From: an uncultured Clostridia bacterium
Lineage (GTDB): Bacteria > Bacillota > Clostridia > Oscillospirales > Acutalibacteraceae
Length of the DNA: 64,000 nt
Direction: 5' to 3'
Assembly: GCA_947585745.1 (NCBI GenBank)
Contig: CANPXF010000003.1
Coordinates: forward strand, 62,001 to 126,000
The translations under genes and the position numbers were made by a program. Shown piece after piece: positions 59,244-63,149 of this stretch. Within the stretch, counting starts at the first letter, position 1, and the number at the start of each line of letters is the position of its first letter. The notes beneath the pieces were generated by a model. It was given only the letters and a program-made list of their open reading frames with translations. It ran no database searches and was not told the origin of the DNA.

Positions 59244-59995
59244 TAAAAATTGCTGACAGAGATTTCTCCGTAAAGGAACATATTGACTTATTATCCGTAA
59301 ATAATCCGTTTGGTTGCAGAATAAAAGCGCTTTACAACACCTATGATTATTCTCTTGCATTTGTGGATTTCTGGGTTCAGCTTGTTGATAATATGCCCGT
59401 ATCATTAATTGCAAGACTTGAAACTGCATTTATACTTTTATTAACCGATAATTCCGATTTGGAGGAAATGAGCGCGTTCATAAGAGTTTCGGGAGCGGAA
59501 AATATAATATGCGACGGAAAATATGAGCTTGACTGCCCGATGAAAAAAGCTACAGGACCTATTCTTGTAAGTGAAAGTGTTATGCGTAATGAGCGTGATT
59601 TCAGCGTTTTTTCTCCTCACATCAAAGACGTTTACAATCTTATTAACAAATGCCGAAGTGAAAATTTTGCTGTTCCGTCTTACGAAAGCTTCGCCCTTGA
59701 TGTAGCGCATAAAATAAGTAAAAAAACCGTCAGAATTTACGGGATAGGAGATTCAAAGCTTATATCCTGCATTATGACATTAGCCGAAACAGACGAAGGA
59801 GCAGTTCTCGGAGCATTGGCGACTGACAGTGATTTCCGCCGTCTTGGTCACGGAGCGTTTCTGATAAAATACATAAATAACGTTTTAGTTAATGAGGGGA
59901 AAAAGGTTTTTCTCCACCGCGCCCCGAATGAAAACATTGAATTTTACAATAAGCTTGGATTTAAACAGTATGGACTGTGGTCCGAATATTCATAA
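59240..59995 (+). CDS. GNAT family N-acetyltransferase
   Basis: C-terminal GAVLGALATDSDFRRLGHGAFLIKYINN...FYNKLGFKQYG acetyltransferase motif. Confidence 0.82.
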   Translation: MIKIADRDFSVKEHIDLLSVNNPFGCRIKALYNTYDYSLAFVDFWVQLVDNMPVSLIARLETAFILLLTDNSDLEEMSAFIRVSGAENIICDGKYELDCPMKKATGPILVSESVMRNERDFSVFSPHIKDVYNLINKCRSENFAVPSYESFALDVAHKISKKTVRIYGIGDSKLISCIMTLAETDEGAVLGALATDSDFRRLGHGAFLIKYINNVLVNEGKKVFLHRAPNENIEFYNKLGFKQYGLWSEYS

Positions 59996-59999
59996 AGGA

Positions 60000-60022
60000 A
60001 AGATAGTGTGAAACACTATCTT
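60000..60022 (+). terminator. Hairpin after the M42/GNAT operon (weak T-tract)
   Basis: AAGATAGTGT-GAA-ACACTATCTT followed by gatttata. Confidence 0.5.
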
Positions 60023-60030
60023 GATTTATA

Positions 60031-60175
60031 TTGCCCGCTCAGTTTATCCCTACGGGGCAACGAGCGATGGCAGAATTTCCATTACGCCTTATCAGCCCAC
60101 GGTAAGGTTATTGGGAATTTGAACTTTTGTTAAAAACAGAAACTTTGCAGGAAAATAAAACTTTTACTTGTGGGC
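60031..60175 (+). ncRNA. Candidate pseudoknotted structured RNA upstream of the methionine-gamma-lyase-like gene (possibly raiA-motif-like; unverified)
   Basis: TTGCCC/GGGCAA interleaved with GCTC/GAGC, hairpins GCGATGG/CCATtaCGC and CCTTA/TAAGG, loop GCCCAC complementary to distal GTGGGC. Confidence 0.5.
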
Positions 60176-60190
60176 AGAAAGGCTATGGAA

Positions 60191-61447
60191 ATGAACAAAT
60201 TTTTTGATATTTCCGAGGAAATACATAACGCTTCAAAAAAAGCTATGGAGCTTTGCGCTGATAAACTTAAAGAAATCGACGAAATTCAGGAATACAATCA
60301 ACATAGAATGATAAAGGCCTTTCAAACCGCTAAAATAAGCGAAAGTCATTTTGTCGGCTCAACAGGTTACGGATACGGCGACAGAGGACGCGACGCCCTT
60401 GATGAGGTTTATTCATATGTATTTGACGCAGAGGACGCTCTTGTCCGTCATAATTTTGTCAGCGGAACACACGCTTTAACGGTAGCTCTTTTCGGAGTTT
60501 TAAGACCGAATGATAAAATGCTTTGCGTTACGGGAACGCCTTATGATACTTTAAGAAGCGCAATCGGAATTGAGGGCAACTACTCAGGCTCTTTGATTGA
60601 TTTCGGTATCAAATATGAGGAAATTGATTTAAAGGACAACAAAACGGTTGATGTTGATGAAATTAAGAAAAGGCTTGATAACAGTTATAAAATGGTATAT
60701 ATTCAGCGCTCCCGCGGTTACAGTTTAAGACCGACGCTGACTTGCGACGACATTGAAAATATTGTTAAAGCAGTAAGAGAGAAAAATAAAGACGTCATAA
60801 TTATGCTTGATAACTGTTACGGCGAGTTTGTTGAAAAAAAACAGCCTCTCTCTGTCGGCGTTGATTTAATGGCGGGTTCGCTTATTAAAAATCCCGGAGG
60901 GGGAATTGCTCCGACAGGCGGATATATCGCGGGCAAGAAGGATTTAGTAGAAATGTGCTCGTACCGTCTGACAACGCCCGGAACAGGAAAGGAGCTCGGA
61001 GCCACGTTAAACGTGTCACGAGAGCTTTTTTTAGGAGCGTACCACGCTCCGTACGCAACTGGCGAGGCGTTGAAAACAGCGATATTTGCCTCTGCGTTAT
61101 TTGAAATTTTAGGCTATAAGGTTTCCCCTGAATATAATGAAAAAAGGGGGGATATTATTCAGGTTATTGAGCTTAAAAGTCCTCAGGTCCTTGAAAAATT
61201 TTGTGTCGGTATTCAGCACGCATCGGCTGTTGACAGTTTTGTCACTCCGTATCCCGATGATATGCCGGGTTACGAGGATAAGGTTATTATGGCGGCTGGC
61301 GCCTTTACATTGGGTTCATCAATCGAGCTTTCAGCCGACGCTCCGTTACGAGAGCCTTACGCGGTATGGATGCAGGGAAGTCTGAATTTTCATTCGGGAA
61401 AGCTTGGAGTTATGCTTGCGGCAAACGAAATTTTAAATGACAAGTAA
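60191..61447 (+). CDS. Methionine gamma-lyase family protein (YnbB / 'aluminium resistance' family)
   Basis: PLP-enzyme: GYGYGDRGRDALDEVYSYVF, QRSRGYSLRPTL, SLIKNPGGGIAPTGGYIAG. Confidence 0.92.
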   Translation: MNKFFDISEEIHNASKKAMELCADKLKEIDEIQEYNQHRMIKAFQTAKISESHFVGSTGYGYGDRGRDALDEVYSYVFDAEDALVRHNFVSGTHALTVALFGVLRPNDKMLCVTGTPYDTLRSAIGIEGNYSGSLIDFGIKYEEIDLKDNKTVDVDEIKKRLDNSYKMVYIQRSRGYSLRPTLTCDDIENIVKAVREKNKDVIIMLDNCYGEFVEKKQPLSVGVDLMAGSLIKNPGGGIAPTGGYIAGKKDLVEMCSYRLTTPGTGKELGATLNVSRELFLGAYHAPYATGEALKTAIFASALFEILGYKVSPEYNEKRGDIIQVIELKSPQVLEKFCVGIQHASAVDSFVTPYPDDMPGYEDKVIMAAGAFTLGSSIELSADAPLREPYAVWMQGSLNFHSGKLGVMLAANEILNDK

Positions 61448-62801: not shown

Positions 62802-63143
62802 GCGAGTAAATTGAACAGTCGCGGGATTATTTTGAAAAGAATTTTTCCGAGGAAAGTCCGGGCCCCATAGAGCGATAACAACGGCTAACGGCCGCCGAGG
62901 GTGACCTTAGGGATAGTGCAACAGAAAATAACCGCCGAATTATCGGTAAGGATGGAAAGGTGAGGTAAGAGCTCACCGCTGATGCGGAGACGCATTTGGC
63001 GTGTAAACCCTGTTTGGAGCAACACCGTGGAGGGATATTATGCCTGCTCGGCAATCCCGTGGAGGTGGCGTTGAGCAAGTCGGCAACGGCTTGTCAAGAT
63101 AGATGACTGTTCACGACAGAACCCGGCTTACAGATTTAGTCGC
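62802..63143 (+). ncRNA. rnpB: RNase P RNA component (bacterial class A type)
   Basis: GAGGAAAGTCCGGGC, ACAGAAAATAACCGCC, GGTAAGGATGGAAAGGTGAGGTAAGAGCTCACC, ACAGAACCCGGCTTACAG; P1 pairing GCGAGTAAAT / ATTTAGTCGC (one mismatch). Confidence 0.95.
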
Positions 63144-63149
63144 AATATG

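Follow-up and report, generated by a model that had tools for sequence, protein, structure and literature searches.

The intergenic region upstream of a methionine gamma-lyase family gene most probably contains one copy of a mobile, non-coding RNA leader of about 185 nt, which brings its own ribosome-binding site (RBS) and is predicted to act as a two-state translational switch. We estimate the probability of this reading at roughly three in four. The region is part of a stretch of 64,000 nucleotides from an uncultured Clostridia bacterium, referred to here as the window.

Results

A structured RNA upstream of a methionine gamma-lyase family gene

The gap at positions 60031-60175 lies between a GNAT gene ending at 59995 and the methionine gamma-lyase family gene starting with the ATG at 60191. 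A preliminary description had proposed an unannotated, structured RNA here, and all sequence strings that it quoted were found in place. The predicted folding energy of the gap is -49.8 kcal/mol compared to -39.2 kcal/mol for dinucleotide shuffles (z -3.0; 1 of 200 shuffles as good), in agreement with a structured RNA. It was also correct that the interval had no existing annotation and that no terminator is located between it and the next start codon. No family of Rfam 15 matched the interval at the gathering score or at E<=10. A resemblance to raiA had been suggested, and this suggestion is all that speaks for raiA/ModT or another known clostridial RNA. Against it, neither the interval nor divergent homologues of the element matched Rfam, and a search of the genome with RF03072 (raiA) was empty, as were the controls of that search. 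In the absence of a covariance model match, raiA and every other Rfam family were dropped, and the probability of this explanation is considered negligible.

The following features were defined in the window:

59994..59999, + strand: native Shine-Dalgarno (SD) sequence AAAGGA of the downstream gene, now 5' of the element and overlapping the GNAT stop codon; from empty orthologous sites
60005..60190, + strand: inserted element, boundaries +/- a few bases; from comparison of filled and empty sites
60000..60022, + strand: hp0, 5' hairpin AAGATAGTG/CACTATCTT, one arm of which pairs into the native flank beside the native SD; from the sequence
60033..60071, + strand: module A, hairpin GCC-CGCTC / GAGCG-(AU bulge)-GGC; from covariation; the stem recurs with different bases in other genera
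60044-60050 / 60054-60060, + strand: inner hairpin of module A, enclosed by the outer stem
60074..60193, + strand: module B in the sequestor state; from covariation and compensatory B2 changes
60074-60082 / 60185-60193, + strand: outer stem of module B, AATTTCCAT / ATGGAAATG
60086-60090 / 60179-60183, + strand: helix B2 of module B, GCCTT/AAGGC, burying the SD
60092-60100 / 60170-60178, + strand: helix B3 of module B
60087..60107, + strand: anti-sequestor S1 of module B, CCTTA 60087-60091 / TAAGG 60103-60107, excluding B2
60111..60169, + strand: apical loop of module B, about 35 nt longer than in most copies
60177..60182, + strand: GAAAGG, element-borne SD, exact in 153 of 176 copies
60191..61447, + strand: host gene, methionine gamma-lyase family PLP enzyme (PF06838, E 1.8e-174), start ATG 60191 by homology

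S1 together with B3 results in an H-type pseudoknot. The outer stem of module B, the 5' hairpin, the GCCTT/AAGGC pairing over the SD and the fact that the interval belongs to an insertion element, present in many copies and located between an SD and a start codon, had been overlooked in the preliminary description. Further downstream, a bacterial RNase P RNA of class A is present at 62803-63146 (RF00010, E 7.7e-86).

Distribution of the element and its host genes

In a blastn search, the interval matched 20 genomes of the genus (at most 26 times in a single genome) and none of 23 genomes from other families of the order. Thirty-two copies were aligned, and a covariance model was built from an alignment from which the window copy was left out. 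This model recovered the window copy (60027-60194; 110 bits, E 4e-23), the match comprising 168 bases compared to 130-135 in typical copies, and gave 10 matches in the source genome. In a sample of the genus, 60 of 100 genomes showed matches, with up to 34 per genome, figures that take in relatives with module A but without module B. A sample across the order yielded 9 positive genomes out of 396, eight of these in the same family, and another sample of the family 16 out of 300, belonging to 13 genera. The sole match outside the family (L088, E 7e-4) could be a chance hit. All genomes are drafts, most of them metagenome-assembled; named carriers are uncultured Ruminococcus sp., Eubacterium sp. 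and Clostridia MAGs, mostly from rumen and gut.

The 172 proteins encoded downstream of the copies fall into 152 clusters and have no shared function. The host genes are therefore arbitrary, and a conserved regulon was rejected. For the same reason, no significance can be attached to the placement beside a PLP enzyme gene, which had been thought worth noting. Among the hosts are alaS, eno, prfC, dnaK, ilvD, leuD, ddl, rimM and genes for lipoproteins, the names being read from N-termini; Pfam was run on the neighbors in the window. Tandem arrays of two to four full elements, about 155-160 nt apart, were observed before single genes (L169:4983-5592, L036, L038, L226, L292, L290).

Filled and empty sites

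Comparisons of orthologous sites revealed where the element resides. An SD-like motif is present 5' of hp0 in 97 of 132 copies and in 9 of 132 control windows. The alaS site reads AATTTAAGGAGAGATA-[element]-ATGCAG when filled and AATTTAAGGAGAGATATAAATGCAG in an empty orthologue; prfC is filled in G099 and empty in G059 (91% identical). The gene in the window is preceded by the element there, while the site is empty in at least nine relatives, reading ATTCATAAAGGATTGATTAAATG in G031 and L370 and likewise in L366, L367 and L369. At alaS, prfC and the window gene, the element is missing from outgroups, and insertion is thus the derived state. Of 20 further sites chosen in advance, the sister genome was empty at 19 and both genomes were filled at one. 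The cleanest pair is TGTACGGAGGATA-[element]-TTATGGAAAAA versus TGTACGGAGGATATTATGGAAAAG. Insertions are found in a single orientation, usually about 2 nt 5' of the AUG and with loss of a few nucleotides, and target site duplications are absent from the filled-versus-empty comparisons. As judged from these site comparisons, the element inserts before unrelated genes, 3' of the native SD and 5' of the start codon.

Several copies in the 20-site set have no hp0. Such copies (L052, L268, L040, L288, L289) begin near module A, apparently by 5' truncation, and their 3' junction is constant. In other copies (L127, L041, L328, L100), 5-10 nt of the host flank, which differ by site, show complementarity to the 3' arm of hp0. 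This match may have been templated at insertion or selected later.

An element-borne ribosome-binding site

A scored open reading frame follows 174 of 186 full copies. For 163 of these 174 copies, the distance from GAAAGG to the start codon is 11-16 nt, and for 110 it is exactly 14 nt, so that the 3' end of the element constitutes the SD of the next gene. Six of the remaining 12 occupy internal positions in tandem arrays, and short frames follow most of the others. The corresponding distance in the window copy is 8 nt. An ATG followed by a frame of at least 60 amino acids was found for 153 of 186 copies compared to 4% of random positions. Collection of copies demanded a GAAAGG-like motif near the end; therefore, this statistic describes intact copies and is somewhat favored, and decayed copies are under-counted. 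The exact GAAAGG motif noted above is retained also in copies with a changed pairing partner. Insertion together with replacement of the RBS is well supported. An internal ATG (GAAAGGCTATGG) is present 2 nt past the SD in most copies, at 60185-60187 in the window; it shares the reading frame of the start codon chosen here in 123 of 174 copies and could be an alternative start.

Excision from the mRNA, as by a mini-intron restoring the native spacing between SD and AUG, would rejoin the native RBS and explain why insertions are tolerated before essential genes such as alaS, eno and dnaK. An intron, however, would have no need for an SD of its own with constant spacing to the AUG, and the self-splicing families of Rfam showed no resemblance to the element, which makes this explanation very improbable.

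RNA structure and two-state folding

From 5' to 3', the element consists of hp0 (TAGTGTGA..TCACACTA), with a core GTGTGA..TCACAC recurring in most copies, module A and module B. In the consensus structure, 97% of the cells are paired, and 16 of 37 pairs show changes on both sides, more than in any of 500 shuffles or any slid version. The preliminary description had held that covarying pairs in homologues without an Rfam hit would support a new RNA, and this combination was found. From the alignments it is concluded that the structure of the element is under selection.

For the region of module A, an H-type pseudoknot had been proposed at 60031-60065. The comparison argues for a nested hairpin instead (98% versus 80% paired): TTGCCC/GGGCAA pairs in just 80% of the cells, and its last pair fails in 25 of 32 copies, while GCC/GGC (60033-35 / 60069-71) pairs in 98% with a C-G to U-A change. 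The pairing of GCTC with GAGC was retained, not as a pseudoknot partner but in the outer stem of this hairpin. In other genera module A is rebuilt as GCC-CTCAAAATT..AATTTTGAG-AU-GGC. A suggested pairing of GCGATGG with CCATTACGC found no support. Its alternative, AATTTCC/GGGAATT, is possible in the window copy, but weak across the family (61%), and an extended anti-sequestor S0 (AATTTCC with the loop GGAAATT), in which 61% of the cells pair, is not claimed.

In module B, the helix formed by GCCCAC (60095-60100) and GTGGGC (60170-60175) is paired in 97.7% of the cells in 32 copies, the partners being swapped for GGCTAC/GTAGCC and GGCAAC/GTTGCC in other genera, where B3 is also rebuilt as CAGGCTAC/GTAGCCTG or CAGGCAAC/GTTGCCTG. 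The CCTTA/TAAGG hairpin (97.5% paired) is replaced by CCTTG/CAAGG, CCTGC/GCAGG or TATGCCTTG/CAAGGCATA in other copies, largely from other genera. The proposal of a pseudoknot-capable CCTTA hairpin, with a loop pairing beside the RBS, could be upheld, and a function as cis-regulator is probable. Covariation backs the middle hairpin and the sequestor over GAAAGG, and the anti-sequestor re-pairs the same strand, so that the two are mutually exclusive. Compensatory changes in B2 are GTCTT/AAGAC, in copies with broken S1, and ACCTT/AAGGT; the extension pair was counted as U-A 14 and as C-G 12 times. In the comparison of RNA with DNA, G-U counts were 31 versus 20 for A-C. S1 left strands of divergent copies scored 4.73 with their own right strand, just slightly above the standard strand (4.46), and 4.10 with shuffled strands. 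Two divergent copies (L216, L227) keep B2 and have no S1; the switch is therefore not universal. The compensatory changes in B2 and S1 are the pattern of a two-state switch, and from this pattern we infer switching itself. In a model that leaves pseudoknots aside, the mean unpaired probability of the SD at equilibrium is 0.07 and the median cost of freeing the region from SD to AUG 17.5 kcal/mol. Much of this cost would presumably be recovered if CCTTA paired with TAAGG instead and B3 persisted as a pseudoknot.

A covarying structure burying the RBS and, by comparison, a mutually exclusive alternative helix (apart from the two divergent copies) are hallmarks of translational riboswitches. Together with the sense orientation 5' of genes, they would also fit an ordinary riboswitch or protein-binding leader of a vertically inherited regulon, with the absences representing losses. 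A coherent set of regulated genes, however, is missing, as 172 genes in 152 clusters have no common function. Moreover, positions are shared almost only among near relatives, and in nearly all other species the site is empty and the native RBS intact. Because of these empty sites in particular, inheritance of the leader is already disfavored and regarded as improbable.

Candidate mobilizing factors and related elements

Y1 transposases are present in 9 of 18 carriers and 44 of 82 other genomes (Fisher p 0.80), reverse transcriptases in 6 of 18 and 32 of 82 (Fisher p 0.79). Neither is associated with carriage. Judged by presence and absence, mobilization of the IS200/IS605 type or by reverse transcriptase was rejected, and a REP derivative or a derivative of a retroelement or group II intron finds no support here. 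Searches with 5' and 3' half patterns for an autonomous version with an open reading frame in the loop of module B revealed no pairs 1-4 kb apart among the matches listed, within the mismatch limits of the patterns, and this candidate was dropped. Carriage by phages or plasmids was also rejected; no copy was detected in viral contigs with the exact module A pattern, nor in phage and plasmid collections.

Related elements share module A, have no module B, and continue with a GC-rich, terminator-like hairpin (GAAAGCG..CGCTTTCTT). They were found in L010, L028 and many of L090-L209 (e.g. L153:5554-5813); the genomes of some species contain tens of them, and most follow a gene encoded on the same strand. 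In a third form, often located just 5' of genes, module A lies between hairpins containing GTATAAT / ATTATACC, which resembles a promoter -10 region (L072-L080, L175, L152, L218, L220). In L018, at about 1501-1540, a degenerate module A directly precedes a cas9-like frame, as judged by eye from its N-terminus.

The most serious competing explanation, unlikely on balance, sees the element as MITE- or REP-like DNA with hairpins that serve as transposase substrates; its position at the RBS would then be just a tolerated site, and the switch a by-product. Small size, repetitiveness, hairpins and lack of coding capacity agree with it, and so do the relatives without module B, which sit elsewhere, often 3' of genes. 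On the other hand, nearly all full copies are at start codons, terminal inverted repeats were not seen when the 5' and 3' ends of copies were compared by eye, target duplications are likewise absent, and Y1 transposases do not correlate. The near-invariant SD and the compensatory changes in B2 and S1 point to selection at the RNA level.

Discussion

The mobile leader with a translational switch remains the preferred reading. As the site comparisons show, the element lands in sense orientation between native SD and start codon and supplies an SD of its own (GAAAGG), as a rule 14 nt away from the AUG. The 5' hairpin would neutralize the native SD, and translation would come to depend on that of the element. 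In the OFF state, AAUUUCCAU-ACGCCUU-A-UCCGCCCAC would pair with GUGGGCGGA-AAGGC-UAUGGAAAUU and cover the SD and the spacer. In the ON state, the CCUUA strand would pair with UAAGG just 3' of it, leaving SD and AUG free, and the CCGCCCAC loop would keep its pairing with GUGGGCGG as a pseudoknot. Module A is most likely the recognition site for the trigger of the switch, for the mobilizing factor, or for both.

More tentatively, at somewhat less than even odds, the element could represent a new class of mobile elements, selfish riboregulators whose insertion machinery reads translation starts as DNA, or possibly as mRNA in initiation context. Such an element would always enter in sense orientation between SD and AUG, disable the native SD, and install one controlled by an RNA switch. 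If so, tens of unrelated genes per genome would be under common RNA control, and arbitrary genes would have a ready route to gain RNA regulation. The approximately 20 pairs of filled and empty sites provide test material for the evolution of leaders and the effect of insertion on expression.

We know of no mobile element with the SD-AUG gap as its target that also assumes control of translation initiation. None was found in the open-access literature searched, and it may have been described elsewhere; the main text of a survey of structured RNAs in the human microbiome does not describe such an element (PMC8040213). We regard the element as categorically new, a novelty that rests on insertion site and RBS replacement; on a stricter view, it could be called a variant of small interspersed repeats.

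SAM-II and preQ1-II riboswitches also use alternative pairings, with the SD beside or within a pseudoknot. The element shares these properties, but is mobile and has neither a metabolic regulon nor an Rfam match. Mobile group II introns are structured RNAs inserted without target duplication, as is the element, which differs in its size of about 185 nt and has neither an Rfam intron match nor an association with reverse transcriptase. Nearest in kind are the BOX, RUP and SPRITE repeats of Streptococcus pneumoniae (PMC3049150) and prokaryotic MITEs (PMC10969869). The former are short multicopy repeats with stable RNA structure, which are regarded as parasitic and may extend operon transcripts at the 5' or 3' end (PMC3049150). 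The element is also short, structured and multicopy, but its sequence is unrelated, and neither targeting of the SD-AUG gap nor an own SD within a switch has been described for these repeats. For prokaryotic MITEs, formation of riboswitches is considered conceivable in a review in which the words Shine-Dalgarno and start codon are absent (PMC10969869). Like MITEs, the element is small, non-autonomous and dispersed; unlike them, it is without terminal inverted repeats, target duplication or a matching transposase, and is fixed in orientation and position.
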